Assembly: GCF_013359755.1 (NCBI RefSeq)
Contig: NZ_JABMCJ010000078.1
Span: forward strand, 62,001 to 126,000
Source of the DNA: Tardiphaga robiniae
Lineage (GTDB): Bacteria; Pseudomonadota; Alphaproteobacteria; Rhizobiales; Xanthobacteraceae
DNA: 64,000 nucleotides
Direction: 5' to 3'
Below the pieces are notes generated by a model that searched no databases, was not told the DNA's origin, and worked only from the letters and a program-made list of their open reading frames with translations. The translations under genes and the position numbers were made by a program. The stretch's first letter is position 1. Each line of letters opens with the position of its first letter. Positions 28,859 through 55,004 of this stretch are shown in pieces.

Positions 28859-28860
28859 AA

Positions 28861-34493: not shown

Positions 34494-35765
34494 CTAGAGA
34501 AATTCTTTTTCGTCGGTCTCCCGACTGATGTATCCCGCCCTTTTCCTTACGCTCGCCTGCGCGTCGGAACGGCTTCCATGCATCACCGACGCCCGGCCCG
34601 CATAGGCAAAGTACAGGGCCATCGATGTAAAATTATCGAGAAGGTTCTCCGAGAAGAAATAGATACAGAGAACGACAAACAGAACTCGCGTCGCTCCAAC
34701 CGGAAGTGATCGGTAAACGTGGATCAGAAATGGAACGAAGATAGCGAGATTGATCAAACCGTACTCTACCAGAATGCGCAGATAGTCGTTATGCGCAACG
34801 AGCGCGGCATAAGTGACAAGCGCCGTTTGCCCCGATCCGTAACCGAAGAGAAAAACACCGGTCCCCTGGCTCGAATACACATTCCAGATATCCGTCCAAT
34901 GTATCAGACGAAAGAATGCCGAAAGATCTGTGGAACCCGTCATGGTGACAAGCTGCTTGTAGGACATTGACGCAATCGCGCTCGGATCCATGCTGAATAC
35001 CAGCATCAAGTTGTCGAACGTCGCAATTCCGCGATCTAGGGCGCCAACCGACAGCGCGACAGCACCGCCTATGCCAACGGCAATAAGAGCAACGATAGAA
35101 CTGCTCCGGATCGGCATGACGATCCACAAGCAGGATGCCACTGCTGTCGCGACGGCTGCCCCCAGCTTGTTCATGACGATAGCATTGATGAACTGGAACA
35201 GAATAACCCGGTTGCCGTAGAGCTGCGTTACCGCAAACAGAAGCGCAGAAAAATACAGAACACCGGTATTCGCGTTCGGAAAATACGAGAAGACTTCACT
35301 CGCAAAGCTCTCATTCTCGTAAACCTTGCTGCTCCCTTTGGTCAGCAAGAAAAGTATCGGCACAATGCCGAGCGCAACAATGCAGCGCAACTCGATCGGT
35401 TTCATCTTGCCACCGGTTGCGCGTCCCGCAGCATAGAACACATAGATTGACAGATACTTGAGAGCATCCGTCATCGACGCAACCTGCAGATTGTAGATGA
35501 CACTTAACGTCGTCGTCACCAGCGCGACGAGCAGATATCCCTTCGCCGCGCCGTCTTCCCGCTTCGACTGCATAATGATCTGAATTGAATATGCGATGAT
35601 CGCGAGGCTGACGGCGTTTCCCACGGCATTGAAGACTTGCGCTCCCAGAAAGTGATAAAGAAATGCGCAAAGATTGACGATCAACAAGCCGATGCAGAAC
35701 ATCGAGAAGTAAGACGATTTCGGTACCGCAACAGTGGGTCGGCCTTCGATCGCAAATTCGCTCAT
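34494..35765 (-). CDS. O-antigen ligase / Wzy-like polymerase
   Basis: 423-residue protein with about ten hydrophobic spans. A large extracytoplasmic loop in the C-terminal half carries FRLIHWTDIWNVYSSQGTGV and FGYGSGQTALVTYAALVAHN, followed by DYLRILVEYGLINLAIFVPF, the usual Wzy_C/WaaL hallmark (the loop with H-N-D-Y). Such proteins polymerise or ligate lipid-linked repeat units on the periplasmic face. Its ATG overlaps the stop of the glycosyltransferase gene upstream by 4 bases, so it belongs to the same operon. With one Wzx and one Wzz in the locus, it most likely is the polymerase. Confidence 0.8.
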   Translation of the reverse strand: MSEFAIEGRPTVAVPKSSYFSMFCIGLLIVNLCAFLYHFLGAQVFNAVGNAVSLAIIAYSIQIIMQSKREDGAAKGYLLVALVTTTLSVIYNLQVASMTDALKYLSIYVFYAAGRATGGKMKPIELRCIVALGIVPILFLLTKGSSKVYENESFASEVFSYFPNANTGVLYFSALLFAVTQLYGNRVILFQFINAIVMNKLGAAVATAVASCLWIVMPIRSSSIVALIAVGIGGAVALSVGALDRGIATFDNLMLVFSMDPSAIASMSYKQLVTMTGSTDLSAFFRLIHWTDIWNVYSSQGTGVFLFGYGSGQTALVTYAALVAHNDYLRILVEYGLINLAIFVPFLIHVYRSLPVGATRVLFVVLCIYFFSENLLDNFTSMALYFAYAGRASVMHGSRSDAQASVRKRAGYISRETDEKEFL

Positions 35766-37048
35766 CGACGGCCACTCATATCGGTGATCGCTTCCTCAGC
35801 CTTTGCCCTCATCACCGCAACCTCCGACACCACCATCGATGGTCGTCGCTTCTGCCGGCGCCCAATTGGAGGTCTGACGATGAGGTCATCCTTGTCCTTC
35901 TGCGGACGCGTTGTCGATCTGTCCGGGTGGGACGCCCCCATCACGGCATCATAAATTTCGAGCGTCTTCGAAGCGATATCATTCCAGTCATAACGGCGCG
36001 TACTCTCGTGTCGAATCGTCTCGCGCTCGGCCGCTCCCATCCGAACCGCAGTGAGAGCAGCCATCTTCGATCTGAGTTCTTCGCAATCGCCAACCGGAAA
36101 GATATTGGCTGGGTCCGTCACAACTTCGCAGTTTGACGGAATGTCACTAACCAACACCGGAAGCCCATAACTCAAGGCTTCGAGTAGGACGATTGGTAAT
36201 CCTTCATGCGACGACGGCAATACGAAAAGTCCCGCATGCGCATAGAGCTGACGCAACGTCTCGCCGCTTTGGTATCCGGCCATCACAACGTTGTCCTGGC
36301 CTTGCGCCTCGATCACAAGCCGATCTGCGTATTCGTTCTTGTGATCGATCCGCCCAACGATAACGAGCTTCCATCCATCCGATTTCAGTCCCTCGAACGC
36401 CCGCAAGAGATCGATCTGCCGCTTCTCGGGGACCAGCCGCCCAACCGTCAAGACATACCGCCCCGCTTCGAGACCCAGCGCGTTGATCTTGTCTGTGTTC
36501 AGCGGAAGCTCAGAAAATACGACCCCATTTGGTATGACATCGCACGTCTTTTCATACTTCTCCTCGATGAGCTGACCGATGCTGCGACTGACAGCTATCC
36601 GCTTATGCGCGTATCGCATTCCGAATGCCTCGCCGGTCCGCAGAATCGTCCGCGCAGCCCAACCCCATTTCTCTCGATTGTAGTCCTCGCCATGATGCGT
36701 CACGACCACGCGCAAGCCAAATAATCGCAGCAACGGCGTCACAATCGCCGGGCCGATTCCGTGAATATGCACGACGCTCGGTCGCTTAATCCCGGCGACG
36801 AGCGCACAGATCAGCGAGTGCAGCAACGTTTCGAGATACACACTGCGAACAGTCCAGAGGCGAAGGATCCTCACTCCGCGCCAAGCATCGCCTTCCTGCG
36901 CGTCCACATATGGTGATCGCACGCAGGCCGTTACACCCTGTCCGAGCTTCGCAAGCCTCGGTGCGAGATTCTCGACATGGTTCTCGATCCCGCCCTGAAC
37001 GTCCGGGAAGCCACGAAACCCGAACGTGTAGACCTCTCCCTTACCCAT
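35762..37048 (-). CDS. Family 4 glycosyltransferase (GT-B)
   Basis: 428 residues. The N-terminal domain starts VYTFGFRGFPDVQGGIENHV, a GT4 acceptor-domain opening seen in rhamnosyl- and mannosyltransferases. HIHGIGPAIVTPLLRLFGLR and VVVTHHGEDYNREKWG follow. The nucleotide-sugar domain has VLTVGRLVPEKRQIDLLRAF and the E-x7-E region in LPSSHEGLPIVLLEALSYGL. The last 60 residues are basic, Arg- and Pro-rich and probably disordered. It is coupled to the downstream polymerase gene by a 4-base overlap and lies 17 bases after the radical SAM gene. Confidence 0.9.
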   Translation of the reverse strand: MGKGEVYTFGFRGFPDVQGGIENHVENLAPRLAKLGQGVTACVRSPYVDAQEGDAWRGVRILRLWTVRSVYLETLLHSLICALVAGIKRPSVVHIHGIGPAIVTPLLRLFGLRVVVTHHGEDYNREKWGWAARTILRTGEAFGMRYAHKRIAVSRSIGQLIEEKYEKTCDVIPNGVVFSELPLNTDKINALGLEAGRYVLTVGRLVPEKRQIDLLRAFEGLKSDGWKLVIVGRIDHKNEYADRLVIEAQGQDNVVMAGYQSGETLRQLYAHAGLFVLPSSHEGLPIVLLEALSYGLPVLVSDIPSNCEVVTDPANIFPVGDCEELRSKMAALTAVRMGAAERETIRHESTRRYDWNDIASKTLEIYDAVMGASHPDRSTTRPQKDKDDLIVRPPIGRRQKRRPSMVVSEVAVMRAKAEEAITDMSGRR

Positions 37049-37065
37049 GACGCCACTCCCCGCTC

Positions 37066-38199
37066 TTAGTTGTTGATGAATGACTTCAGTGGGTAATGTT
37101 GGTCAGTTGTTATGCGCCCCTTGACCAGCTTGGCCTTGACGGTCTTGTCCAGGAATGACGGTCGCTCGACATGCGGCGACGGCCGCGCATCCGAATAGTC
37201 GATATAGCTGTCGAAGCAGATCTTCTTGCCCATCGACACCTTGGCTTTGTTTTTCAGAACCCACATCAATGGCTCCTGCTTTGGCAGTTGCGGCACGATC
37301 CGGGATCGCATCGCTGTCCGTGCGGTGGTCACCATCCAGCAGTTCTGTGCGCATCCAGCGACCTTGCCGAGCGTTTTCCGGGCGGTGTCGCTGTTGGCGA
37401 TCTCATCCCACGACTGCTTTGCAAGATTTCCCATCGGAAGATCGGACCGGACGTTGCAAGCCCAGACATCCGACCACGGATCGATGAACGCAAAATCCTT
37501 TCCGGCGCTGCAGGGAATGAGCCTGTCGTGACCGAGAATCTTCTCGATCAAACCGAGATTCAGATAGGCGCGGAACCAGTTCTTCGGCTTGTTGCTTTTC
37601 AACAGCGCCTCGACGAGCCCCTCGACCTTGCGCGCGACACTGCGCCGATCATAGAAATAGTTGTCGTTCTTGTAGAATTGCCAGGCGTTATGCAGCGTCG
37701 AGGTTGCGAGTTCGTAGCCTTCCTTGCGGGCGAATTCGTAGACATCGACCAGCTGATCGACATTCTCGTCCTGGATCACCATCGCAAAGCCAAGATCCGT
37801 GCCGCCCGCCTCCTTCAGCATCCGGAGCCCGGCGACCTTCGTGGCATAGCCGCCCTTCTCGCCCCGGATCGTATCGCTGGTTACTTGGTCACCTTCGACG
37901 GAGAACCGAACCTTGATGTTCGGATACTTCTTGATGATTGGAACCAGGCGTTCGGGATGCAGGCCATTCGACGAAATCTCGAGGACCCGCGCTTTCGGAT
38001 AAAGCAGGTCCGCGATCTCGGCGAGATCTTTGCGAAGTGTTGGCTCGCCACCCGACACATTGAGGTTGTCGAAGCCAGGTGGCAGTTTCGACAGTGTCTC
38101 GAGTGATATCTCTTCCCGCGGATCGGTCGGGTTCTGCCAAATATAGCACATCTGGCACTTGGAATTGCAGCGGAACGTCGAAATGATAGTGAGATCCAT
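37066..38199 (-). CDS. Radical SAM/SPASM protein in EPS operon
   Basis: 377 residues. The radical SAM cluster motif C-x3-C-x2-C is at Cys11, Cys15 and Cys18 (FRCNSKCQMCYIW), followed by NVSGGEPTLRKDLAEIADLL, the GGEP SAM-binding motif, and EISSNGLHPE. C-terminal Cys residues in IPCSAGKDFAFIDPWSDVWA and AGCAQNCW fit a SPASM-like auxiliary cluster site. It sits between two glycosyltransferases, with its start one base after the upstream stop. Radical SAM enzymes in polysaccharide loci may epimerise or dehydrate sugars or modify a peptide; which applies here is unknown. Confidence 0.85.
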   Translation of the reverse strand: MDLTIISTFRCNSKCQMCYIWQNPTDPREEISLETLSKLPPGFDNLNVSGGEPTLRKDLAEIADLLYPKARVLEISSNGLHPERLVPIIKKYPNIKVRFSVEGDQVTSDTIRGEKGGYATKVAGLRMLKEAGGTDLGFAMVIQDENVDQLVDVYEFARKEGYELATSTLHNAWQFYKNDNYFYDRRSVARKVEGLVEALLKSNKPKNWFRAYLNLGLIEKILGHDRLIPCSAGKDFAFIDPWSDVWACNVRSDLPMGNLAKQSWDEIANSDTARKTLGKVAGCAQNCWMVTTARTAMRSRIVPQLPKQEPLMWVLKNKAKVSMGKKICFDSYIDYSDARPSPHVERPSFLDKTVKAKLVKGRITTDQHYPLKSFINN

Positions 38200-38200
38200 T

Positions 38201-39556
38201 TTATACTCCGACTCTGTTCTGTTCCTTCAGGGGATTCACGACGCTTTGGTAGAGCGCGAGCAGCGCCGCCCCATGGGTTTGAAGCGAGTATTCGGCTTCG
38301 ACGACCTTCCTGGCCTCAGCACCAAGCCGCCCACGGAGGTCACGGTCCGCGAGCAGCAGTCGAATTTTGCTCGATAGGTCGTGAACGTCCTTCGAGGCAA
38401 ACAGCAGCCCGGTCAATCCGTCTCTGACCAACTCGGGAATTCCACCAATTCGCGATGCAAGAACGGTTTTTCCGTGCGCCATCGCCTCCAGGATCGAGAG
38501 CGGGCTGTTTTCGTGCCACTCCGAAGGCACCACAACGACGGCGGCTCCGCGAATGACACTCGTCAGATCTGCACCAGCCAGATGTCCCTTGAACTCGGCG
38601 TCTGGAAATTGCGTCTGGAGCTCAGATAACAGAGGCCCGGTCCCGGCCACCACAAGCCGCCAAATGGCACTGTCTGCAGCATGTGCTTTCAGCAGGGTGG
38701 CCACACCTTTTTCCGACGAAAGTCGCCCGAGATACAGGATATAGCCGCTATCTTCACGAGATACCTGGATCGCAGAGGCGTCGATACCATTGGGAATATG
38801 CGTGACTTTCGCGTCTCCAAACCGGCGTGCGACGGCGTCACGCATGAATCGACTGGGCGCGATGAATTGACTGACACGTTGATAACTTTGCGCCACCGCG
38901 TGATAGCGCGCTTCCGCCCAAAGTAACGCACTTCGCCCCAGCGACCCGTCCGCACATCGTTTACGCAAAATCGATTCGAAACGTCCGCTGGTGCAGTCTG
39001 TGCAGACTGCGCCATTCGACAGTTGCGTGTAGACCGGGCAAACCGGCTTGTAGTCGTGCAGCGTCAGGACGACTGGCGTATGAAGCCGCGCAGCGGCATT
39101 GATGATCGACGGCGTCAGCTGATGGTAGATGTTGTGGCAATGTAAAAGGTTGGGATTCTCGTCGCGTATGAGCGCGGAAATATTACTTACGGCTTCCTGA
39201 GACCGAACGAAGGAGATCGCGGCTTTTATTTTGCTGCTTCTCGACCCCGCCTTGTAGCTCTTCTCGGAAACGAAGTAAGATTCGTATTTCGACGGGCGAT
39301 TGCGACTGTCGCGCATGGAGAACTCCATGACGTCGATGCCGCGCCCCTTCATCCAGCCCATTTCGTCGAACATAACGGCCTCTGAGCCGCCATTCCGGAA
39401 GAAGAATTTATTCGCGACAAGGATCTTTTCGACCTGATCCGCAGCGCAACTCAGTGTCGCCCGTTGAATATCGGTGCCCCCGTCCGCGCTACGTTCGGCC
39501 TGCGACGGCCTTAGCATCACGATGTTCTCGTTGCGGAACGCGCTACTGGCGGGCAT
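38201..39556 (-). CDS. Family 4 glycosyltransferase (GT-B)
   Basis: 451 residues from the ATG at 39556; an internal ATG 13 codons later is possible. After a polar leader it reads ILVANKFFFRNGGSEAVMFD, HCHNIYHQLTPSIINAAARL and LTLHDYKPVCPVYTQLSNG, then CTDCTSGRFESILRKRCADG, a Cys-rich loop common in this GT4 subgroup. The donor domain has ILYLGRLSSEKGVATLLKAH and VVVPSEWHENSPLSILEAMA. It is the first gene of the minus-strand operon that continues with radical SAM, GT4, polymerase and galE. Its promoter lies in the 256-base gap to the type I exporter gene, which contains a perfect TTGAC-N4-GTCAA box. Confidence 0.9.
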   Translation of the reverse strand: MPASSAFRNENIVMLRPSQAERSADGGTDIQRATLSCAADQVEKILVANKFFFRNGGSEAVMFDEMGWMKGRGIDVMEFSMRDSRNRPSKYESYFVSEKSYKAGSRSSKIKAAISFVRSQEAVSNISALIRDENPNLLHCHNIYHQLTPSIINAAARLHTPVVLTLHDYKPVCPVYTQLSNGAVCTDCTSGRFESILRKRCADGSLGRSALLWAEARYHAVAQSYQRVSQFIAPSRFMRDAVARRFGDAKVTHIPNGIDASAIQVSREDSGYILYLGRLSSEKGVATLLKAHAADSAIWRLVVAGTGPLLSELQTQFPDAEFKGHLAGADLTSVIRGAAVVVVPSEWHENSPLSILEAMAHGKTVLASRIGGIPELVRDGLTGLLFASKDVHDLSSKIRLLLADRDLRGRLGAEARKVVEAEYSLQTHGAALLALYQSVVNPLKEQNRVGV

Positions 39557-39664: not shown

Positions 39665-39812
39665 CTCCGCTTAGCGCAGCGCAATAGAGTCTCTCTCAAC
39701 GATATCTGCCTGAACTTCTCCTCTATTTCGGCGCCAGAATTGGATCGGATCATTACTGCGGCTCGAGCGCGACATGGTAGCAGCACAGGTGCCGCGCGGC
39801 GCGAGGGGACCA

Positions 39813-41957
39813 ATGGAAGAGCACCTCGAGCCAACAGCAGCAAAGCCTGACGGCGGTCTTATAGCTCTCGTCATGATGCTCAGATTTCAGGGGCTGAGCA
39901 TTGACCCGGAGCGCATTCGACATCAGTTCGGTCACAAGCTCATCGGCGTGGCTGAGATGCTCCGTTGCGCCAAGGATCTCGGCCTAAAGGCGCGCATTGT
40001 GCGCAGCAGTTGGGTGCGGCTGTCCAAGGTGCCAATGCCGGCCCTGGCGCTTCTCAAGGACGGTCAGTTCCTCCTGCTCGGCAAGGTCGAGCCCGAGAGG
40101 GTCATTGTCCTGCAGCCGGGTCGATCGCAGCCGACAATGATGACGCCATCCGAGCTGACAACCGTATGGGACGGCCCGCTTCTCTTGATGACGAAACGGG
40201 CAACCCTTTCAGATCTGGCTCGGCGGTTCGACCTCACCTGGTTCATCGCGGCAATCTACAAGTACCGCTGGCTGTTGAGCGAAGTTCTCCTTGCTTCGTT
40301 CTTTCTCCAGCTATTTGCGCTGGTCTCTCCGCTCTTTTTCCAGGTTGTGGTCGATAAGGTTCTTGTTCATCGCAGTATGAGCACCCTCGACGTGCTCGCG
40401 ATTGGCCTGATTGCCATCGCTTTGTTCGAGACCGTCCTTTCGATTCTTCGGACCTATCTCCTGTCTCACACCACCAACCGCATCGACGTAGAGCTTGGCG
40501 CCCGGTTGTTCCGACATCTACTGGCGCTTCCGATCGGCTATTTCCAGACCCGGCGCGTCGGCGACTCCGTGGCGCGCGTCCGTGAGCTGGAGAACATCCG
40601 GAATTTTCTCACCAGTTCGTCTTTGACCGTTGCCATCGACCTGTTCTTCACGATCATCTTCATTGGCGTTCTGTTTGTCTATTCGCCCCTACTCACCTGG
40701 ATCGTCGTCGCCGCGTTTCCCATTTATGTCGTCATCTCTGCGGTTGCGACGCCGCTATTCCAGTACCGGCTCGATGAAAAATTCAGGCGCGGTGCCGAGA
40801 ACCAGGCATTTCTGGTCGAAAGTGTCACTGCCATCGAAACGTTGAAAGCAATGGCGGTCGAGCCCCAGATGCAGCGGCGCTGGGAGGAGCAGCTGGCAGC
40901 CTATGTGTCTGCCAGCTTTCGCGTCCTCAGTCTGGGCAATTTCACCAGCCAGTTCATTCAGTTCATTAGCAAAATCGTGAGTGCGCTGATTCTATACTTT
41001 GGCGCCAAACTGGTCATCAGTGGTGACCTGACCGTTGGCGAACTGGTGGCCTTCAATCTACTCGCGGGCCGTGTCAACGCACCAATTCTCAGACTGGCCC
41101 AACTCTGGCAGGACTTTCAGCAAACACGCCTCTCGGTTGCCCGGCTTGGTGACATCCTGAATACCGCTCCGGAGCCAGCCTATATGCCCAGTCGGATGTC
41201 GCTTGCGGCCATCAGAGGGGACGTCCGCTTTGAACATGTAACGTTCCGTTATCGCATCGATGGACCGGAAATCCTCCACAACATCAACATCTATTGTCCT
41301 GCTGGACAGGTCATTGGAGTGGTTGGCCCATCCGGGTCGGGCAAGAGCACGCTCGCAAAACTGGTTCAGCGCCTCTATGTCCCCGAAACGGGCCGGGTGC
41401 TGGTCGACGGCGTCGACATCGCACAGGTCGATCCAAGTTGGCTTCGTCGGCAGATTGGCGTTGTCCTGCAGGATAGCGTTCTGCTTAACGCTTCCATTCG
41501 CGAAAACATCGCTTTGGTTGATCCAGCGACACCTGCCGGAAAAGTTGTCGAAGCTGCCGCTCTCGCGGGCGCCCATGACTTTATCATCGAGCTTCCGGAA
41601 GGCTACGATACTGTCGTCGGCGAGCGGGGCAACACATTGTCGGGCGGCCAGCGCCAACGCGTCGCCATCGCGCGCGCGCTCATAACTGATCCCCGTATTC
41701 TAATCTTCGATGAGGCTACAAGCGCGCTCGACTACGAAAGCGAACGGATTGTCCAAAAGAATATGGCGCAGATCGCCAAGGGGCGTACAGTATTCATTAT
41801 TGCTCATCGCCTTTCCGCCCTCCGCATGGCCGATCGCATCATTACGATCGAGAATGGACGGCTGGTCGAGGACGGCACCCATCAGGAGCTCATAAAAGCC
41901 GGCGGGCGCTATGCCAAGCTTTATCGTTTGCAGGCGGGGTTTCATGACCCGGCTTGA
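39813..41957 (+). CDS. Type I secretion ABC exporter with C39-like domain (HlyB/LapB type)
   Basis: 714 residues from the ATG at 39813, preceded by GAGGGG; an ATG at 39774 is possible. Residues 12-130 are a C39-peptidase-like domain in which the catalytic Cys position is Gly (DGGLIALVMML), so it should bind substrate rather than cut a leader. Six membrane spans follow (about 150-430), with SPLFFQVVVDKVLVHRSMST and RLFRHLLALPIGYFQTRRVG typical of HlyB. The ATPase has GPSGSGKS near 505-512, LSGGQRQR near 609-616, LIFDEATSALD and AHRLS. It exports proteins across both membranes with the adaptor encoded next; no TolC-type gene is visible. Confidence 0.92.
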   Translation: MEEHLEPTAAKPDGGLIALVMMLRFQGLSIDPERIRHQFGHKLIGVAEMLRCAKDLGLKARIVRSSWVRLSKVPMPALALLKDGQFLLLGKVEPERVIVLQPGRSQPTMMTPSELTTVWDGPLLLMTKRATLSDLARRFDLTWFIAAIYKYRWLLSEVLLASFFLQLFALVSPLFFQVVVDKVLVHRSMSTLDVLAIGLIAIALFETVLSILRTYLLSHTTNRIDVELGARLFRHLLALPIGYFQTRRVGDSVARVRELENIRNFLTSSSLTVAIDLFFTIIFIGVLFVYSPLLTWIVVAAFPIYVVISAVATPLFQYRLDEKFRRGAENQAFLVESVTAIETLKAMAVEPQMQRRWEEQLAAYVSASFRVLSLGNFTSQFIQFISKIVSALILYFGAKLVISGDLTVGELVAFNLLAGRVNAPILRLAQLWQDFQQTRLSVARLGDILNTAPEPAYMPSRMSLAAIRGDVRFEHVTFRYRIDGPEILHNINIYCPAGQVIGVVGPSGSGKSTLAKLVQRLYVPETGRVLVDGVDIAQVDPSWLRRQIGVVLQDSVLLNASIRENIALVDPATPAGKVVEAAALAGAHDFIIELPEGYDTVVGERGNTLSGGQRQRVAIARALITDPRILIFDEATSALDYESERIVQKNMAQIAKGRTVFIIAHRLSALRMADRIITIENGRLVEDGTHQELIKAGGRYAKLYRLQAGFHDPA

Positions 41958-42029: not shown

Positions 42030-44009
42030 TTGACCGTACTTGAGACCACATCTCTGCACAGTGGCGACGATCCTGGCTTCTTTGCCCTGGAGATACTGTT
42101 ACGCTTGGCCGGATTGGAGGTCGACGTTGCCCTGCTGCGCAGCATCAGCAACAACGGTCCCATCGATGTTGCAAGTATCCTAGCTTACGCACGGAAGGCC
42201 GAACTGTCCGCACGATGTATCGAGACAAGGTGGATTGACCTTCCCAAATATGCACTGCCGGGCATCATTCCTCTTCGCAATGGCAGTTTCTCGATTGTCG
42301 GCAGCGTCGCCGGCGAGAAGGTCATCGTTCTTCAGGCTGGTGCATCTCGTCCAAACGTTTTGAGTGAGGCGCAATTCACCTCACTCTGGGACGGACGCCT
42401 CCTTCTGATCCAAAGGTTATCTCCAGTATCAGCATCGACCCTGAGGATTCGCAAGCTGCTGACACGAATCTTCCAGAAGCCACGCCGGCTCGACCAGGCC
42501 ACGTCGCATAGCCCCCCGGGCCAGGTCGCGGTTCTGGTCACTGCACGACGGGGCGCCGCCGCAGTGTCCAGTCAAGCTCGGAAATTCGGCAGCGCTGTGG
42601 CCAGCCTGAAGCCACGAGATCAGGCGTCTCAAATTCATGAACTGGCATTTTTGCCCGCTGCCCTCGAAATCGTGGAAACTCCTCCGTCTCCAATCGGGCG
42701 CGCAGTCGCGTATACTATTGCTTCCATCTTCACATTTGCGCTCATCTGGGCAACATTCGGCACCGTCGATATTGTAGCCACCGCACCGGGAAAATTCGTC
42801 CCGAGCGGGCGCACGAAATCAATCCAGCCTCTCGAAGCCGGCGTCATTCGAGCGATCAGCGTCACGGACGGCCAGGCCGTGCGGAGCGGCGATCCATTGA
42901 TCGCGTTCGATGCCACGATGAGCACCGCAGAACTTGGCCACCTCAAAAGTGACCTCCTTGGGTCGGAGCTTGACGTGGCACGGCTGAAGGCGGCTTTGAA
43001 TAAAGCGCTGAATCCCCTGACTGCCTTTGCCCCGCCGGACCATGCGCCCTTGGCCCTCGTTGAGATGCACCGGCGCTTTCTTATCAGCCAGACCGCCGAG
43101 CAAGCTGCCAAACTCGCAACTATCAATGGCCAGATTGCACAAAAGGAGGCCGAACGAGCAACTTCCAAGGCATTGAGCGAGAAATTACGCGCCGTCTTGA
43201 ATCCCTTGCAGCAAAGGGTCGAAATCCGGGAGCAGCTGTTTCAGAAGGGCCTGGGCTCGAAGATCAATTATCTCACCGAATTGCAGGACTTGGTTACCCA
43301 ACGCCAGGAGCTGACCGTACAGGACAGCCGCCATAGCGAAGCGGAGGCTGCAATTGCGGTGTTAGTCGAAATGCGAACAAAGGCCGTCGCAGAATATGAA
43401 AGGTCGCTCTTCGAGGAATTGGCCAAGGCGGAACAGAAGGTCGCGGGGCTCACGCAGGACGTCATCAAGGCGGAGCGCCGCACCGCGCTACAGACCTTGA
43501 CGGCTCCTATCGACGGTACCGTCCAGCAACTGGCCGTTCACACTGTTGGCGGGGTCGCCACTCCTGCCCAAACGCTCATGCTGATTGTCCCGGAGGACAG
43601 CCGCCTGGAAATCGAAGCCAATATTTCCAACAGGGACATCGGGTTTGTTGAACCAGGCCAAGACGTGGCTATCAAGGTCGATACGTTCAATTTCACGCGC
43701 TACGGCCTTCTGAGCGGCAAGATTCTGAGCATCTCGAAGGATGCCATCACCCGCAACAAGCCGCCTGCCCGAGGCGTCGATTCTTCACCTGCTACAGACA
43801 CTGCCAGCAGCGAACCGGCCGGTCAGGAACTCGTATATTCCGCACGCATATCGGTGGATCGCAAACAGATGGATGTAGAAAATAGAGCCGTCGATCTTTC
43901 GGCCGGCATGGCTGTCACTGCTGAGATCAACATCGGATCACGTCGGATTATCAGCTACATCATGTCCCCGCTGCTGCGCTACAAACAAGAAAGTCTGCGC
44001 GAGCGGTAG
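42030..44009 (+). CDS. HlyD-type membrane fusion protein with an N-terminal C39-like domain
   Basis: 659 residues from a TTG at 42030 (GAGAG upstream), 72 bases after the exporter. Residues 14-130 mirror the exporter's C39-like domain almost position by position: PGFFALEILLRLAGLEVD, ASILAYARKAELSARCIETR, EKVIVLQAGASRP and SLWDGRLLLIQRL. A linker (131-222), one span (about 223-243) and a standard HlyD part follow. The HlyD part has ATAPGKFVPSGRTKSIQPLE with GVIRAISVTDGQAVRSGDPL (lipoyl half), a long coiled hairpin (about 300-480), LTAPIDGTVQQLAVHTVGG near 490 and a beta-barrel end. Usual HlyD proteins have only 20-60 cytoplasmic residues; this one has about 220. The fusion is the most unusual gene seen here. 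Confidence 0.88.
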   Translation: MTVLETTSLHSGDDPGFFALEILLRLAGLEVDVALLRSISNNGPIDVASILAYARKAELSARCIETRWIDLPKYALPGIIPLRNGSFSIVGSVAGEKVIVLQAGASRPNVLSEAQFTSLWDGRLLLIQRLSPVSASTLRIRKLLTRIFQKPRRLDQATSHSPPGQVAVLVTARRGAAAVSSQARKFGSAVASLKPRDQASQIHELAFLPAALEIVETPPSPIGRAVAYTIASIFTFALIWATFGTVDIVATAPGKFVPSGRTKSIQPLEAGVIRAISVTDGQAVRSGDPLIAFDATMSTAELGHLKSDLLGSELDVARLKAALNKALNPLTAFAPPDHAPLALVEMHRRFLISQTAEQAAKLATINGQIAQKEAERATSKALSEKLRAVLNPLQQRVEIREQLFQKGLGSKINYLTELQDLVTQRQELTVQDSRHSEAEAAIAVLVEMRTKAVAEYERSLFEELAKAEQKVAGLTQDVIKAERRTALQTLTAPIDGTVQQLAVHTVGGVATPAQTLMLIVPEDSRLEIEANISNRDIGFVEPGQDVAIKVDTFNFTRYGLLSGKILSISKDAITRNKPPARGVDSSPATDTASSEPAGQELVYSARISVDRKQMDVENRAVDLSAGMAVTAEINIGSRRIISYIMSPLLRYKQESLRER

Positions 44010-44103: not shown

Positions 44104-45441
44104 TCAGCGCACCAGGCCGGCGGACTGCAATGCAGAAGCCGCCTCCTTGAGGGTCCCCCAGGGCAGGCTTGAGCGTTCGGCGATATCGAGCAGAGAGGTT
44201 GCACCGTCCGACATATTCAGAATCCATAGCAACGCCAACTGGTACTCACCAGCAGAACGCCCGCCAATGGTGCTGTAAAGACCATAGTCACCGAGCTTCG
44301 GCTCACACATCGGCTTCTGATTGGTATATTTTCGATTATTCTCAATCACATCGATCGCCGCGATTGCCCTGTCCAATGAATCGCGCAGAGCCGCTGGTTT
44401 CACGAATGACAGATTGTCGGCCGATGTGTGGTACTCAGGGAATTTCCCGTGCGGCGTCCTCATGAACGAGCCGACCGGGAGATTGATGCCAGGCGAGCAG
44501 TATTGTCGCTCGTCATAGCCAAATGGTGAGAAAGGCTGAATTGTGTGGGGCTCGCCACCTTGCTTCAATACATAGGTCCACGCACGATCGATTTCGGCAT
44601 TGCCTTGGCGGCTTAATTTGTATGTCGGGCTCCCAGCGTCGCCCACACACGTCAAAACGAAGCCATGCTTGATCCGGCTGAGATGCGCCTGATTCAACGC
44701 CAACCAGGTGATTGATCCGATCGTGCCGGGGATAAACACAAATCGATAAGAGTAGCGTAGATCCATGTTGCGCAAATGCTGGGCGAGTGCTGTCGCCACG
44801 GCAACTCCGGACAGATTGTCATTACAAAGAGACGGATGACACAGGTGGCAGGATATGAGGACTTCTTCTGATGAACTTCCCAGCAGCCGCAAGTCGCCAT
44901 AAGTGAGATGCCCGCGTTCAAGCATCGAGTCGATGCAAACCTCGTACTCGTCTTCTTTGAGTGCCAACAACTGCGTATGTGTGACGCAAAATCCCCAGGC
45001 GGCGTGATAATACGACGTGCGATAGGGAATGACGTCCGGATGGTCTGGATCTGAAAAGAGGTGCTTCTTCAGTTCTTCGAGATTAAGGCGCACATGAACA
45101 GGCACGCTGTAACTAACCACATGAAGATTGCACGCTCGGAAATCTACGATGCGCTCTCCAGCACTGTTCTTGATGTAAGCATCGCGGATATTCCACTCAG
45201 ATGGCACCGTCCAGTCGAACACTTTCAAACCGGACGGCACCTCACAAGTGGTAAGCGGAACATACTTCTGAATATGACGAAGGGTTTCGCGAACTCCCTC
45301 GCCGGTAATGCTCCTGCATATCGGATAGAGATCTGCAATGAAGTCATGCATGGCCTGGCCACTGCGATCGGCCGACAACTCCGTCGTCGCAGCGCCCCTC
45401 TCGAGTCGACCCGACACCACCTTCCGAACAATATCATGCAT
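44104..45441 (-). CDS. DUF4910-type aminopeptidase-like protein with C-terminal winged helix
   Basis: 445 residues. The core resembles M28-type zinc peptidases: DFIADLYPICRSITGEGVRE at the start, LISCHLCHPSLCNDNLSG with the His and Asp metal ligands, VFIPGTIGSITWLALNQ in place of the usual T-H-E segment, and PEYHTSADNLSFV near the end with another His and Asp. The last 70 residues (AGEYQLALLWILNMSDGATS) look like a winged helix. Proteins of this type recur beside C-methyltransferases and RfbC-like epimerases in surface-polysaccharide loci, where their reaction is not established. It lies 41 bases after the methyltransferase gene in the same operon and converges on the HlyD gene. Confidence 0.8.
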   Translation of the reverse strand: MHDIVRKVVSGRLERGAATTELSADRSGQAMHDFIADLYPICRSITGEGVRETLRHIQKYVPLTTCEVPSGLKVFDWTVPSEWNIRDAYIKNSAGERIVDFRACNLHVVSYSVPVHVRLNLEELKKHLFSDPDHPDVIPYRTSYYHAAWGFCVTHTQLLALKEDEYEVCIDSMLERGHLTYGDLRLLGSSSEEVLISCHLCHPSLCNDNLSGVAVATALAQHLRNMDLRYSYRFVFIPGTIGSITWLALNQAHLSRIKHGFVLTCVGDAGSPTYKLSRQGNAEIDRAWTYVLKQGGEPHTIQPFSPFGYDERQYCSPGINLPVGSFMRTPHGKFPEYHTSADNLSFVKPAALRDSLDRAIAAIDVIENNRKYTNQKPMCEPKLGDYGLYSTIGGRSAGEYQLALLWILNMSDGATSLLDIAERSSLPWGTLKEAASALQSAGLVR

Positions 45442-45482
45442 CGCCAGGTCTCATTCCACTCTCTATTCTGATGCTTTGATCG

Positions 45483-46781
45483 TCACGCGATGACAACGGG
45501 CTCCGGAATAGGAACAATAAATTTTGCTCCCCAACTGCGGGCAAATGACAGCTGGCTGATGATTTCCTGTTGCAGATTCCACGGCAGGATCAGGATATAG
45601 TCCGGCTTTGTCACCCCTATCCTTTCCGGCTCATAGATTGGGATGTGCGTTCCGGGCAATAAATGCCCCTGCTTATGTGGGTTCTTGTCGACCGTGTACT
45701 CGATGAGGTCGGGGCTGACACCGCAGTAATTCAGCAGAGTGTTTCCCTTGGCCGGCGCTCCATATCCGACGACCCGTTTACCTTCACGTTTTACTGTTTC
45801 CAGAAAGTCGATCAGCTTCCGCTTCGTCTCCAGGGCGCGCTCCTCGAAGGCCTGATAATGCTCCAGATTGGCGAACCCCGCTGCGATCTCTTTTTCTCGC
45901 AACGCTGACACCCGGCTCGACACCGCGTGACGTCCGCGACCCGTGTGCTGTGCATAGATCCGAAGCGAACCGCCGTGGGTCGACAGCTCTTCAACATCGA
46001 ACAACGTCATACTGTGGGATGCGAAGATCTTCTCAACGGTCAGAAACGAGAAGTAGGAAAAGTGCTCATGATAAATCGTATCAATCTGGCACTCGTCAAA
46101 AAGCCGCATGAGGTGCGGGAATTCCATTGTTGCCACGCCACGATCATCGAGGAGAATGCTGATCCCGCCGACAAAATCATTCAGGTTTGGCACATGCGCC
46201 AGCACGTTGTTTCCAATCAGAAGATTGGCACGCAACCCTTCGCGGCGAAGCGTCTTGGCTGACCGCTCACCGAAAAAATCGACGCGCGTGGGAATACCGC
46301 GCGCTCTGGCGACCGCGGCAACATTCTGCGCCGGCTCGATTCCGAGGACCGGGATCTCATGCTCGACAAAGTACTGGAGGAGATATCCATCATTGCTTGC
46401 GATCTCGACGACGCTCGTATCTGGACCGAGGCCAAAGCGAGTGATTACGTTGTCGACATACTTCTTGGCATGCTGAAGCCATGATTCGCTGTATGACGAG
46501 AAATACGCGTAATCGCCGAAGATGTTCTCCGGGCTTTCCCACTCTTCCAGCTGAACAAGAAAGCACTCGCTGCATACATAGGCCTTCAGCGGGAAGAATT
46601 TCTCCTTTTCTCCATTGTCATCCTTCTTCAGATAGGAATTTGCGAGAGGAGACATCCCAAGATCGAGAAACACGTTCTCCAGAGGAGCGCTACAGAATCT
46701 GCAGCTACATGTTTCATCCGAATGCGACGACGGTGTCGCCGCCGAATTGAAGGACTGCACAGCGACTTCTTGATTCAACAT
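45483..46781 (-). CDS. Sugar C-methyltransferase, NovU/TylC3 type
   Basis: 432 residues from MLNQEV at 46781. The N-terminal zinc-binding domain has CRFC and a later CSEC pair (YVCSECFLVQLEEW). The SAM-binding domain reads SVVEIASNDGYLLQYFVEHE and NVLAHVPNLNDFVGGISILL, followed by FPHLMRLFDECQIDTIYHEH. The C-terminal domain has KRVVGYGAPAKGNTLLNYCG and ILILPWNLQQEIISQLSF. This three-domain layout belongs to enzymes that C-methylate nucleotide-linked 4-keto-deoxysugars at C3. It suggests a branched sugar in the EPS. A perfect TTGAC-N4-GTCAA box stands about 75 bases before the start. Confidence 0.9.
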   Translation of the reverse strand: MLNQEVAVQSFNSAATPSSHSDETCSCRFCSAPLENVFLDLGMSPLANSYLKKDDNGEKEKFFPLKAYVCSECFLVQLEEWESPENIFGDYAYFSSYSESWLQHAKKYVDNVITRFGLGPDTSVVEIASNDGYLLQYFVEHEIPVLGIEPAQNVAAVARARGIPTRVDFFGERSAKTLRREGLRANLLIGNNVLAHVPNLNDFVGGISILLDDRGVATMEFPHLMRLFDECQIDTIYHEHFSYFSFLTVEKIFASHSMTLFDVEELSTHGGSLRIYAQHTGRGRHAVSSRVSALREKEIAAGFANLEHYQAFEERALETKRKLIDFLETVKREGKRVVGYGAPAKGNTLLNYCGVSPDLIEYTVDKNPHKQGHLLPGTHIPIYEPERIGVTKPDYILILPWNLQQEIISQLSFARSWGAKFIVPIPEPVVIA

Positions 46782-46849
46782 GGGTACGCTCCTGATGCGC
46801 GTTCGCGTTATCTCGCACCGGAACCGTATTTGTCTGCGCACCCGTTCAC

Positions 46850-46863
46850 TTGACCTCTGTCAA
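46850..46863. promoter_or_regulatory. Crp/Fnr-type palindrome, perfect
   Basis: TTGAC-CTCT-GTCAA; the symmetry extends by AC on the left and GT on the right, giving 7-base arms (46848-46865). It is centred about 75 bases upstream of the C-methyltransferase start, in the gap after the RfbC-like gene. Confidence 0.6.
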
Positions 46864-46937
46864 GTTATCACAACTACTTTATTTGACGGATGGGATTGCG
46901 GATTGGCGCGCGCGTTGCGGCAATCGTTTTCTCGATG

Positions 46938-47543
46938 TTAGTCCGCCATCGGAATGAGACTGTACGCCAATTCGCTGCTCGCAGGCGTAGACATACGCGC
47001 CCGCATTTCCGCTTCGCGGCCTTTGAGAGGCGCCCAGGCCTCATCCCGCTCGGAGATTACCGAAACAGCCGGCCAGCTGATGCCGAGGACCGGATCCTGA
47101 TATCCGATGCCTCCCTCGCCGCCGGCCATGTGAGACGTGCTCATGAAGTAAAGAAGTTCGGTATCATCAGCCAGGGTGATGAAACCGTGCGCGAACCGCT
47201 TCGGAATATAAAGCCCGCTACCGTTTTCGGCGGAAAGTTCGACGCAAACATGCCTCAAGTAGGTATTGGATTCAGGACGAAGATCCACGATGACATCCAA
47301 AACGGCGCCCCTGACACAGCGAACATATTTCTCTTCTGCGTACGGCGGATATTGGAAATGCAGTCCTCTTAGCGTTCCTGCCTTGCAGTTATAACTCAGG
47401 TTCGCTTGCCGGATTGAGGTTTCCAGCCCGGGAGCGGAGAGCTCTTCAACACAGAACACACGCGAGAAGTATCCACGTCTATCCTCGTGTCGCTCGACGT
47501 CAATGACGAAAGCGCCTGCCAGATCTGTCTCAGTAAGGATCAT
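46938..47543 (-). CDS. rfbC: RfbC-type NDP-4-keto-sugar 3,5-epimerase
   Basis: 201 residues, a cupin fold of usual size (180-205). Family motifs are DRRGYFSRVFCVEEL, RGLHFQYPPYAEEKYVRCVR with the catalytic His62 and Lys72, VLDVIVDLRPESNTY, and LYIPKRFAHGFITLADDTEL. It would epimerise an NDP-4-keto-6-deoxysugar at C3 and/or C5. No rfbA, rfbB or rfbD (dTDP-rhamnose) genes occur in the window, and rfbF does, so the natural substrate is probably the CDP-linked intermediate that the adjacent methyltransferase uses. Confidence 0.9.
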   Translation of the reverse strand: MILTETDLAGAFVIDVERHEDRRGYFSRVFCVEELSAPGLETSIRQANLSYNCKAGTLRGLHFQYPPYAEEKYVRCVRGAVLDVIVDLRPESNTYLRHVCVELSAENGSGLYIPKRFAHGFITLADDTELLYFMSTSHMAGGEGGIGYQDPVLGISWPAVSVISERDEAWAPLKGREAEMRARMSTPASSELAYSLIPMAD

Positions 47544-50359: not shown

Positions 50360-51844
50360 TCAATAAACGTTGTCAGTCTTCAACACCCGAAAGACCGTCA
50401 AAACCAGGATGCGAAGATCCAGCCAGATCGACCACGATTCGATATACCACAGGTCGCTTTCGACCCTCTTCTTCATCATGCCGATCTCTGGGGTTTCGCC
50501 TCGGAATCCATTGACCTGAGCCCAGCCTGTAATTCCTGGCTTGATCTTGTGCCGCATGGCATAGGTTGCAATGAGCTGATCGTATTCAGAATCGTGTGCC
50601 AATGCATGCGGCCGAGGCCCCACGAGCGACATTTCCCCGCGAAGTACGTTGATTAGCTGCGGTATCTCATCAATGCTGAGCTTTCGCAACAGCGCTCCCA
50701 GCCGCGTAATACGATGATCATTCCTCTTGGCCTGAACAATGACCGGTCCGTCGTCTCGCGTGTTCATCGTCCTGAACTTATAGATCTTGAACGGCTTTCC
50801 GTTGAAGCCTGCCCGCTGCTGGAGAAATAACGACCGGCCCGGCGACTCCAGGCGTATTGCGATGCTGATAATCGCAAACATTGGCAGTAGGACAATGAGT
50901 CCCGATGCGGCCAACAGCTGGTCCATGGATCGTTTCATTGTCCGCTGCATGGCACTCAGGGGCGCACGCTGCAGCTGCAGGGCCTTTGTCGGGCCAAAAT
51001 CGAATAGCGGTCGATCCAGCAGGCGAGCTGTCCTTTGATCAGAAACGAGTTTGATTGGAATCGGGAGAACACGCAGCTCGCTTTCGACTTGCCCGACCGC
51101 ATCGAGAAATGCCCAAGGCATTGCGATCACGACCTCGTCCACCCCGGTTTGGCGGACATAGCGAACGAGCTCGCGCATGCGTTCCTTGAGGATGGCGGGA
51201 TCGAGCAATTGGCCGGGCCCCATTGGAAGCGATACGATTTTGCAAACAGAGTAGCCATATAACTCAAGCTTACTCAGCGTTGCGTTACCGATGAGCTCTT
51301 CCTCCAGACCGACCAAAACGATCCGGTTCGGCCGAATAAGCTTCGAGCGGATGACATAGGAACAGAGTTCCGCGACGATGACTCTCAACACGGAAGAAGC
51401 AACGAGGCCGCTTACAAAGAAAAGCAAAACCCAGCCACGAGAGAAGGTCGATCCGCTCTTGAGCAAGAAAACGAGAGCCGCGAGAGACGCAAATACGGCC
51501 AACCATGTCAGTGCGGATCTGCCAACCTGCCACCGGCCTCGCAGCAGATTGGACGGTTGATACAGCTTCGAAACATGAGCAATAGCGGAATACAGAATGC
51601 CGACAGCCATTCCCGAGCCCAGGTTGTTTTCCGCGCTGCTATAGCCAGCGACAGCGGTAGCATCATAAATGATGCCCGTTGCGACCGACAGAATTACAAT
51701 CCATACTAGGTCAAGCGCCGCTACGAGCGGGGAAATCACTGACAAGGAGGACGGTACGCCGAGCTCGTGCTGACCGTGCGGTCGCTCCAGTCTCGCCGCC
51801 GCCTTTCGATCGCCCACCGGATCCATTGAATCTGCTCCTACCAA
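50360..51844 (-). CDS. Undecaprenyl-phosphate glycosylphosphotransferase (WcaJ type)
   Basis: 494 residues; an ATG six codons in is possible. Four N-terminal spans (about residues 35-150) precede a Rossmann-like CoA-binding domain (RIVLVGLEEELIGNATLSKL), a fifth hydrophobic helix (LAASGLIVLLPMFAIISIAI) and the catalytic domain. The latter has FKIYKFRTMNTRDDGPVI, LRKLSIDEIPQLINVLRGEM, SLVGPRPHA and KPGITGWAQVNGFRGET. It transfers a sugar phosphate, usually glucose-1-P, from UDP-sugar to undecaprenyl phosphate and so starts each EPS repeat unit. It follows the Crp/Fnr gene after 27 bases on the same strand. Confidence 0.93.
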   Translation of the reverse strand: MVGADSMDPVGDRKAAARLERPHGQHELGVPSSLSVISPLVAALDLVWIVILSVATGIIYDATAVAGYSSAENNLGSGMAVGILYSAIAHVSKLYQPSNLLRGRWQVGRSALTWLAVFASLAALVFLLKSGSTFSRGWVLLFFVSGLVASSVLRVIVAELCSYVIRSKLIRPNRIVLVGLEEELIGNATLSKLELYGYSVCKIVSLPMGPGQLLDPAILKERMRELVRYVRQTGVDEVVIAMPWAFLDAVGQVESELRVLPIPIKLVSDQRTARLLDRPLFDFGPTKALQLQRAPLSAMQRTMKRSMDQLLAASGLIVLLPMFAIISIAIRLESPGRSLFLQQRAGFNGKPFKIYKFRTMNTRDDGPVIVQAKRNDHRITRLGALLRKLSIDEIPQLINVLRGEMSLVGPRPHALAHDSEYDQLIATYAMRHKIKPGITGWAQVNGFRGETPEIGMMKKRVESDLWYIESWSIWLDLRILVLTVFRVLKTDNVY

Positions 51845-51871: not shown

Positions 51872-52588
51872 TTATCTCTGCGCCCTTGCGCTTGCGACCT
51901 TCATCAACCCATTTTGATTGATGAAGCGAATGGTCTTCCGGCTTGGCAGATCAATTAGCTCTTTCGCTTTGAAATCAGCGAGTGCCCGACAGACAGTCTC
52001 AATTGATGTTCCGACATGATCGGCGATATCGGCCCGAGATAGTTGCAGCCGAAGCGCTTTGGGACGCTTCGGGTCCTCGCGCAAATGAGGTTGAATGCGA
52101 AGCAGAAGCCACGCAATCCGGGCAACGCAGGTTCGCTGGCTCATCGTCAGTACAAGAGAGAGTGTTTCCGACAGAACTTGATGAGTCCCGCATGGCTCGC
52201 CCTGATGACAAACGCGAGCAACGGTGGTGCGAATGACTCGGCAGTCCGTAACTGCTTCAGCTGTGAATTCTTGGCACGCCTGCTGGGTGGGCATGACAAC
52301 ATCGCCTGGCCAATAAAAGGCAAGGATTTGCCGGTTGCCGTCGGGGAGCAGACGCACTGCCCGCACGACGCCTTCGATGATTTCGATCTTCTGGTTTTGT
52401 TGCTCTCCCTCCCAGAACAGGGCTCTGCCCCGCGGAACAATCGTCGGAGTGGGAGTACGATCCAGCATTATCTTGCTGGGCAGCACAGTAAGGCCAATCG
52501 GCGCGCGTCTGCAGGACGGCTTTAGGGAAACCATGTCTAGCGGCATTGGTCCAACCCTCAACGTTAAAGCGTGCGTTGAAGGTGGCAT
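51872..52588 (-). CDS. Crp/Fnr-family transcriptional regulator
   Basis: 238 residues from 52588; ATGs at 52534 and 52468 are alternative starts. The cupin-like sensor domain includes RGRALFWEGEQQNQKIEIIE and LLPDGNRQILAFYWPGDVVM, followed by the dimer helix and a winged helix: LQLSRADIADHVGTSIETVC, then RALADFKAKELIDLPSRKTI. The recognition helix carries E-T-V-C-R, close to the E-T-V-S-R of FNR/FixK proteins, which read TTGA half sites. The N-terminal Cys cluster of FNR is absent, so oxygen sensing through 4Fe-4S is unlikely. Its gene precedes the EPS priming transferase and it is the natural candidate to bind the TTGAC-N4-GTCAA boxes of this locus. Confidence 0.88.
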   Translation of the reverse strand: MPPSTHALTLRVGPMPLDMVSLKPSCRRAPIGLTVLPSKIMLDRTPTPTIVPRGRALFWEGEQQNQKIEIIEGVVRAVRLLPDGNRQILAFYWPGDVVMPTQQACQEFTAEAVTDCRVIRTTVARVCHQGEPCGTHQVLSETLSLVLTMSQRTCVARIAWLLLRIQPHLREDPKRPKALRLQLSRADIADHVGTSIETVCRALADFKAKELIDLPSRKTIRFINQNGLMKVASARAQR

Positions 52589-54281: not shown

Positions 54282-55004
54282 CTATGCCGGAAATCTCATG
54301 CGTGATCGGCCGCCATTCATACCCATCCCCTCGATCATGAAACGGGTGCTGGAAGCGCGGCTAGCAGTACGTTCTTTCGGTCCAACAATCCTTGCGGCCA
54401 TGAACGCCGCCTCGGTTCTATTGCGAGCGCCAAGCGCCCGAAGAAGTGCAGCTGTATGAATTTTGCTCGTGCCCTCGGCGATGCTCAGCTCACGTGCGAT
54501 CTCTTTGTTCGACATTCCCTGCGCCAGCAACGGCAGCACGTCATGCTGGCGACGCGTCAAACGAAGTTTGTCGACATCGACCGTCATCGTACGCTGACTG
54601 CCAACGCTGCCATGATCGCCATCTGCGAGCCATCGTGGAACATAGATACGTCCAGTGAGCAGATCGCTGATAGCCGTCAGCAACTCTTCGTCGGATTGTA
54701 GCTTGTAAACAAATCCGTGAAACCCAGCTGAGAGGCAACCAAATACGTCAGCACGGGTATTTGACGTCGACATGATAGCAACGCGCGTCGCCGGGCGCCG
54801 CTCATAAACCTGCGCGAGCACCTCAAGCGAAAGGTCGTTGAGACTTGCTCGATCCATCAGGATCAAGTCGAAACAATCATCCGTTTCGAAAACCTCGAGG
54901 CGAGACGCCTCGATTACTCTGGAGTGTGGAAGTCTTGCCTCAACAACGTCCTTGAGGCCGGCTCGATAGACGCTGTGCTGGTCGACCACTAAGATTACTG
55001 ACAC
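54282..55004 (-). CDS. LuxR-family response regulator with atypical receiver
   Basis: 240 residues. The receiver domain opens MSVILVVDQHSVYRAG, so the usual acidic D-D pair is D-Q. The phospho-acceptor Asp51 is kept (DLILMDRASLND), but the following residue is Arg rather than Leu. Thr/Ser in IMSTS and Lys in FVYKLQSDEELL are present. The GerE-type HTH is standard: LTRRQHDVLPLLAQGMSNKE, IARELSIAEGTSKIHTAALL, RALGARNRTEA. Loss of one Mg-binding Asp suggests weak or phosphorylation-independent activity. Similar LuxR-type regulators are frequent in rhizobial EPS loci. No kinase gene is nearby. Confidence 0.88.
   Translation of the reverse strand: MSVILVVDQHSVYRAGLKDVVEARLPHSRVIEASRLEVFETDDCFDLILMDRASLNDLSLEVLAQVYERRPATRVAIMSTSNTRADVFGCLSAGFHGFVYKLQSDEELLTAISDLLTGRIYVPRWLADGDHGSVGSQRTMTVDVDKLRLTRRQHDVLPLLAQGMSNKEIARELSIAEGTSKIHTAALLRALGARNRTEAAFMAARIVGPKERTASRASSTRFMIEGMGMNGGRSRMRFPA

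Follow-up and report, generated by a model that had tools for sequence, protein, structure and literature searches.

The 64,000-nucleotide stretch of DNA considered here (‘the window’) carries, at positions 42030–44009 on the + strand, a gene for an HlyD-type periplasmic adaptor with an N-terminal C39-like domain (‘CLD’). The open reading frame starts at TTG and specifies 659 amino acids. Upstream, with its end 72 bases from the adaptor gene, lies the gene for a type I exporter, an ABC protein of 727 amino acids (39774–41957, +). Profile matches assign the exporter to the HlyB type (1022 bits to TIGR01846, versus 389 bits to TIGR01842, the PrtD profile). It has a CLD of its own, detected by Pfam at residues 23–147 (39840–40214, +), with Gly at the Cys site. 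Both genes lie inside a polysaccharide cluster. On the − strand upstream are a Wzy/O-antigen-ligase-like membrane protein (34494–35765; below the Pfam cut-off), and two family-4 type glycosyltransferases that flank a radical SAM/SPASM protein (35762–39556). Downstream, on the same strand, are a DUF4910 aminopeptidase-like protein, a sugar C-methyltransferase and a dTDP-sugar 3,5-epimerase (44104–47543), then the initiating sugar transferase (Bac_transf) of the cluster (50360–51844). By sequence reading, neighbors of the 44104–47543 kind recur in the related loci L003–L008. Genes for a CRP-type regulator (51872–52588, −) and a LuxR-type response regulator (54282–55004, −) flank the cluster, and similar ones occur at the same cluster end in L003–L008.

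From its N-terminus onwards, the adaptor consists of the ‘accessory’ CLD (residues 13–134; 42066–42431, +); a low-confidence linker of 72 residues (135–206; 42432–42647, +), supported by pLDDT values below 50, by lengths and by dN/dS; the segment FLPAALEIVETPPSP, ahead of the membrane span (207–221; 42648–42692, +); a predicted single span (222–243; 42693–42758, +), suggested by hydropathy and by a low-confidence model helix at 221–243; and the HlyD core. Across 13 loci with this arrangement—‘fusion’ loci, in what follows—the linker between CLD and core measures 66–106 residues. The FLPAALEIVETPPSP segment begins with FLPAA[LI]E, a motif that stands at the start of the core in 61/62 adaptors compared. 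The core (residues 221–659) scores 387.4 bits to TIGR01843 (type_I_hlyD), above the cut-off of 208.65, and by this profile the C-terminal two thirds of the protein is an ordinary HlyD-type adaptor. FLPAALEI is preceded by 206 residues in the fusion adaptor, versus about 20–80 in 49 adaptors from single- and tandem-CLD systems, counted from the first start codon. In adaptors of the HlyD family (TIGR01843) the cytoplasmic tail ahead of the single span is expected to be short; that of the window adaptor is long.

An earlier note on this DNA had described the N-termini of adaptor and exporter as aligning almost without gaps, and this is borne out: by BLASTP, 47/131 positions are identical (36%), with 2 gap positions and an E-value of 9e-28. 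The shared motifs to which it pointed are in place, VIVLQ at adaptor residues 98–102 and WDGRLLL at 120–126. In the adaptor, Peptidase_C39 exceeds its Pfam cut-off of 22, scoring 27.1 bits with the whole protein and 31.3 bits with the N-terminus alone. When compared with PDB sequences by phmmer, the adaptor N-terminus matches the HlyB CLD (3zua; E 2.2e-5). Structure prediction gives a C39 fold: an AlphaFold2 model of residues 1–135, built from 14 aligned rows, has a mean pLDDT of 86.7, and its best VIA-align matches are HlyB chains (8dck_A, Z 16.3, 1.7 Å over 119 residues; 7sgr_A, Z 16.3; 3zua, Z 16.0). The full-length model has a mean pLDDT of only 61, with linker and membrane part below 50; its N-terminus resembles 3zua (Z 16.5) and its core, HlyD (5c22; Z 16.4). 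We regard it as confirmed that residues 13–134 are a C39-like domain. A whole such domain precedes the HlyD span, as had been supposed, so exporter and adaptor would both display a CLD to the cytoplasm.

Judged by its residues, the adaptor CLD is catalytically dead: the position of the Cys is occupied by Pro, and that of the His by Phe, in 13/13 adaptor CLDs, unlike HlyB, which keeps His83. In HlyB, His83 and Trp77 form a stacking pair. This pair is absent from the adaptor CLDs, and Trp is found at the Trp77 position in none of 97 CLDs from five groups. All 13 adaptor CLDs retain Asp14-Pro15-Gly16 (the ‘DPG’ motif), Trp68 and Trp120. Among the 97, a Cys occupies the catalytic position in a single CLD, the membrane-proximal one of a tandem exporter (L061, 6286–8991, −).

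The fusion is seen in 15 genomes—that of the window and 14 more—and is intact in all of them, which rules out a frameshift, a mis-assembly or a false start. Named Bradyrhizobium and Rhodopseudomonas genomes, whose contigs were scanned with patterns taken from close relatives only, gave L003–L008, and the remaining fusion loci come from further genomes of the family. In an even draw of family genomes, at least 13/391 have the fusion. Fusion counts use 13 loci, leaving out the near-identical L004 and L007; by a tally of these 13 genomes, the fusion is intact over at least 8 genera, and no loss within the fusion clade was found among the loci seen. In 8 pairwise comparisons, some with a member in common and so not all independent, dN/dS is 0.07–0.34 for the adaptor CLD, 0.22–0.48 for the linker (the highest of the three adaptor regions in 8/8 pairs) and 0.04–0.17 for the core, which the CLD equals or exceeds in every pair. 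By these ratios, the adaptor fusion is evolving under purifying selection.

Beyond the family, a profile of the adaptor CLD finds matches in 28/397 genomes of the order (E ≤ 1e-10) and 37/385 of the class (E ≤ 1e-7). No fusion layout was seen outside the family in these searches, as judged from pairs of neighboring hits, with lone hits in odd-length frames inspected in two genomes (L116, L117 and L119). L116 (6346–9342, −), from another family of the order, encodes a 998-residue exporter in which the CLD, at 298–420, has about 300 unassigned residues before it. On plasmids, HlyD matches begin without exception at query residue 131 or later among the 60 of 990 records listed, and the CLD matches (40 listed of 123 records) fall under exporter or C39-peptidase genes, or under no gene. 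On plasmid NZ_CP088278.1 of Bradyrhizobium barranii, two CLD places at 159143–161922 are followed by an ordinary HlyD, a set that may be a tandem-CLD system.

Local profiles sort 62 loci into 27 with a single-CLD exporter, 22 with a tandem-CLD exporter and 13 with the fusion, numbers that are not frequencies, the tandem and single-CLD loci having been picked among the matches listed. L043 and L044 (broken frames) and L029 and L030 (distant) are not counted. In single-CLD and tandem-CLD loci the adaptor is ordinary; in fusion loci, exporter and adaptor have one CLD each. The co-occurrence that the earlier note suggested looking for, of adaptor CLDs with exporters lacking the catalytic Cys, agrees with this: exactly one CLD is present on the exporter in 13/13 fusion loci, and that of the window exporter is without the Cys. 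None of the 62 loci combines a tandem exporter with an adaptor CLD, for three CLDs in all. The tandem exporters (L019, L020, L045–L064) are 876–929 residues long, contain two C39-like domains separated by 43–94 residues, and have an ordinary HlyD next to them; at least 22 genomes of the family encode such a pair. As read from their domains, the extra CLD is here part of the exporter, whereas in fusion systems it is part of the adaptor. In L070 and L072, both single-CLD, the exporter and adaptor genes are on opposite strands, unlike the usual tandem order. In L043 and L044 the exporter frames are broken, and L044 has pieces of exporter and adaptor in one frame; these loci are degrading or mis-sequenced.

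Trees and counts omit the near-identical L004 and L007 and the duplicates L031, L032, L033 and L035, and later trees omit the distant L028 as well. In trees of the CLD-free parts, the 13 fusion systems form one clade by exporter core (100/98) and by adaptor core (99/94). The tandem loci form one clade by exporter core (100/99); in the best adaptor tree they do not, and their monophyly is not rejected (p-AU 0.149). Because the adaptor core rejects a clade of fusion plus tandem systems (p-AU 0.0009) and the exporter core does not (p-AU 0.097), it is more likely, though not proven, that a second CLD was gained twice, with relocation after a single gain as the less likely course. Among the CLDs themselves, those of the adaptors form one clade (96/93); in a quick tree that includes the distant row L028 they fall in two groups. 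They are grouped with the outer CLDs of tandem exporters at 90/93, unstarred and with long branches in play, and the test does not reject a tree that joins them to the CLDs of their own exporters (p-AU 0.445). Long end branches indicate faster evolution of the CLD on the adaptor than of that on the exporter.

In HlyB, according to PMC11026475, which cites Zhao et al. 2022, the CLD uses a patch of basic residues (K56, K58, K62, R66 and R128) to dock on HlyD, where it meets an acidic cluster. We mapped these sites through an alignment to HlyB. On membrane-proximal exporter CLDs, the K56, K58, R66 and R128 sites are basic in 13/13 each (fusion loci) and 22/22 each (tandem loci), and on single-CLD exporters in 27, 27, 24 and 26 of 27. 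The same sites are basic in 3, 11, 6 and 8 of the 13 adaptor CLDs; in the outer CLDs of tandem exporters the first three are basic in 9, 14 and 13 of 22, and R128 is mostly a gap. The K62 site is basic in none of the five CLD groups. Comparison of exporter with adaptor CLDs in fusion loci gives Fisher p-values of 1e-4, 0.48, 0.005 and 0.04, which are rough, the rows being related. Erosion is partial: 28/52 cells in the adaptor CLDs are still basic, and the K58 site (11/13, p 0.48) differs little. With the basic patch eroded in accessory CLDs and kept on the membrane-proximal CLD of the exporter, the simplest reading of these residues is that an accessory CLD, whichever partner bears it, no longer has to hold the adaptor and has another task.

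Gene context and homologues make P0005 the most likely cargo of the window system. Its gene (30453–32420, +) lies within the polysaccharide cluster, 7.4 kb before the exporter, and encodes 655 amino acids: an N-domain, Ig-like (Big_13/Big_6) repeats, a DUF642/CBM-like region recognized through relatives, and a C-terminal motif. The motif (LINQYSA...), found by motif profiles, is a putative secretion signal (32250–32417, +). A paralogue of the N-domain is encoded at 28642–29955 (+), with 56% identity to P0005 residues 7–232; it has neither the C-terminal motif nor Ig repeats, its start could, by eye, hold a Sec-type signal, and one domain may exit by two routes. N- or C-terminal relatives of P0005 occur in 11/13 fusion genomes. 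The other two, G105 and G076, have none; a GH114-type protein is encoded directly upstream of the exporter instead (L041 and L042; Pfam on L041). Matches of any kind to P0005 occur in 28/40 genomes, many through Ig repeats alone.

The C-terminal motif shared by the candidate cargos is roughly LLxQYxA, followed by a Leu-Pro end. Its profile matches 51/1145 ORF ends (E ≤ 0.1), where 34 of the seeds and matches had been selected or retrieved with an eye to the motif or to P0005. A motif ORF lies directly upstream, on the strand of the exporter, in 21/22 tandem, 10/27 single-CLD and 2/13 fusion loci. The fusion locus L040 has a weaker motif ORF 34 bases upstream; in most fusion loci the candidate cargo is kilobases away from the exporter, not adjacent. 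A profile made from tandem cargos only finds the ends of single-CLD and fusion cargos, and vice versa. As controls, reversed ends gave 4 decoy matches (best E 0.51) and N-terminal ends none. The end of P0005 itself scores only E 0.37 and 0.25 with the other classes’ profiles, near the best decoy; relatives score 1.6e-4 (L093) and 9e-5 (L089) across classes. With a profile built on fusion-type ends, each of the 13 fusion genomes has one strong match, on the contig of the exporter, 12/13 of these genomes having contributed rows to the profile. G377 has two further weak matches, one beside its own single-CLD exporter, and in 15 genomes of the family that have no CLD-exporter match the profile found one match, weak and partial.

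Pfam detects no RTX family in P0005, nor in five other cargos of the fusion type. Fusion-type cargos contain Ig repeats and DUF642 (above cut-off in 3/4, L086 falling just below), and one is a GH114 protein. The tandem-type cargos (7 scanned) comprise two polysaccharide lyases, three GH16 proteins, one beta-helix and one without a match; of the single-CLD cargos (8 scanned), four have Ig repeats, together with a phosphoesterase in one case, three have AIDA-type repeats and one has RTX. The accessory CLD goes with cargos that act on or bind polysaccharides, an association that may reflect history rather than function, because each layout is approximately one clade. The earlier note’s ‘large substrate’ finds no support. 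The 12 candidate cargos measured for fusion systems have 448–845 residues (median 654), versus a median of 1071 in single-CLD relatives (459–2442; n = 13, of which three are truncated where the locus ends). The Mann–Whitney p-value is 0.036 for fusion versus single-CLD and 0.13 for tandem versus single-CLD. Cargo length does not support large cargos as the explanation for the extra CLD.

We class the system with the CLD-bearing adaptor as a novel form of type I secretion rather than as a separate kind of machinery. Like HlyB/HlyD, it combines a TIGR01846-type exporter that has a degenerate CLD with a TIGR01843 adaptor core, and the best structural match of the adaptor CLD is the CLD of HlyB; known HlyD, however, is without a CLD. 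Unlike type I secretion of RTX cargos, no RTX repeats (GGxGxDxUx) were found in the candidate cargo, whose link to the exporter we infer. As in Sinorhizobium meliloti, where ExpD1/ExpD2 and ExpE1 are encoded within the galactoglucan cluster, type I secretion genes lie within a polysaccharide cluster, and as with Rhizobium PrsDE, which serves the Ply glycanases and Rap proteins, the exported proteins would act on or bind polysaccharide (PMC1403797 and PMC9298526). ExpD1/ExpD2, by contrast with the HlyB-type exporter of the window, are described as PrtD/PrtE homologues. PrtD-type exporters are not known to have a CLD. PCAT1, ComA and LahT also have an N-terminal C39 fold on the exporter; there it is an active peptidase and the cargo has a leader peptide (PMC8277102), whereas here it is dead and present on the adaptor too. 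The tandem-CLD exporters are alike in having two CLDs per exporter–adaptor pair, an eroded patch on the accessory copy and the same kind of C-terminal motif on the cargo, and differ in having the second CLD at the exporter N-terminus and an ordinary HlyD. No published CLD on an HlyD adaptor, and no tandem CLDs on an exporter, were found in the literature searched, which leaves out most subscription papers.

What might the adaptor CLD do? We suggest that it is a second cargo-capture site tethered to the adaptor, a reading on which we would bet neither for nor against. Sequence, fold and conservation show that the adaptor has gained a dead CLD, held at the cytoplasmic side of the span by a flexible linker of ~70–100 residues. 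If the six-to-six stoichiometry of HlyB–HlyD (PMC11026475 and PMC9751043) applies, each complex would have twelve CLDs, six carried by the exporter near the membrane and six by the adaptor. The exporter CLD would keep the docking of the adaptor; the adaptor CLD, freed from docking, would capture or shield unfolded cargo before or during threading, and hand it to the pump. For HlyB it is established that a CLD recognizes cargo: a swap of the HlyB CLD abolished secretion (PMC11026475), and this CLD binds unfolded HlyA (PMC9751043). Going by gene context and homologues, the exported protein would bind or remodel the cell’s own exopolysaccharide, and the fusion layout probably serves proteins that act on the polysaccharide coat of the cell. 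Binding by the HlyB CLD has been mapped on RTX repeats; since none were found in P0005 and the five other fusion-type cargos scanned, the cargo-capture reading is weakened. The wider proposal is that a receptor CLD was duplicated and put on different partners in two lineages, the accessory copy becoming the cargo receptor and the docked copy serving assembly, so that the fusion adaptor also chooses cargo; this we hold tentatively, with somewhat less than even confidence.

The main rival to cargo capture is a role in assembly or regulation, in which the adaptor CLD contacts the exporter CLD or NBD, never the cargo, and strengthens the complex, or gates the ATPase or the recruitment of TolC. It gains favor because the N-terminal cytoplasmic tail of HlyD is reported to be tied to TolC recruitment and ATPase activation, not to substrate binding (PMC4446572). 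The CLD is an assembly surface for HlyD in the HlyB–HlyD structure (PMC11026475), and the accessory CLD follows the machine rather than one type of cargo, tandem cargos being lyases, GH16 proteins and a beta-helix. Yet accessory CLDs of both kinds have lost part of the patch known to serve docking, though a new surface could have evolved, and ordinary docking seems to be kept, because the FLPAALEI segment is still present in 13/13 fusion adaptors. We consider this role possible, if doubtful. Improbable, in our estimate, is a tolerated duplication with little or no function, in which a copy of the exporter CLD landed before HlyD and stayed: the faster evolution of the adaptor CLD and the loss of part of its patch would fit, but the dN/dS range, the residues kept in every adaptor CLD (DPG, Trp68 and Trp120) and the intact fusion across genera speak against it. 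Very improbable is a coupling role, in which the adaptor CLD interacts with a product of the polysaccharide cluster, in the cytoplasm or the membrane, and synchronizes the export of protein and polymer; the position of the exporter and adaptor genes inside the cluster fits, as does the need for ExpD1/ExpD2 and the cargo ExpE1 in galactoglucan production by S. meliloti (PMC1403797), but tandem and single-CLD loci have a cargo gene beside the exporter instead. An active C39 peptidase that trims cargo on the adaptor would have the right overall fold, but is excluded by the loss of the catalytic Cys and His residues, unless another set of residues carries out catalysis.

According to PMC9751043, the function of the CLD in type I secretion is not fully understood. 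It is hard to define because, in HlyB, one domain both recognizes cargo and holds the adaptor. Fusion and tandem systems seem to divide these jobs between two copies, on two proteins or on one; with the jobs so split, the accessory CLD would be separable in experiments from the CLD that serves assembly. If the accessory CLD captures cargo, the adaptor would gain a possible active part in the choice of cargo on the cytoplasmic side. And for the family to which Bradyrhizobium and Rhodopseudomonas belong, the shared motif suggests a non-RTX C-terminal signal for cargos that act on polysaccharides.
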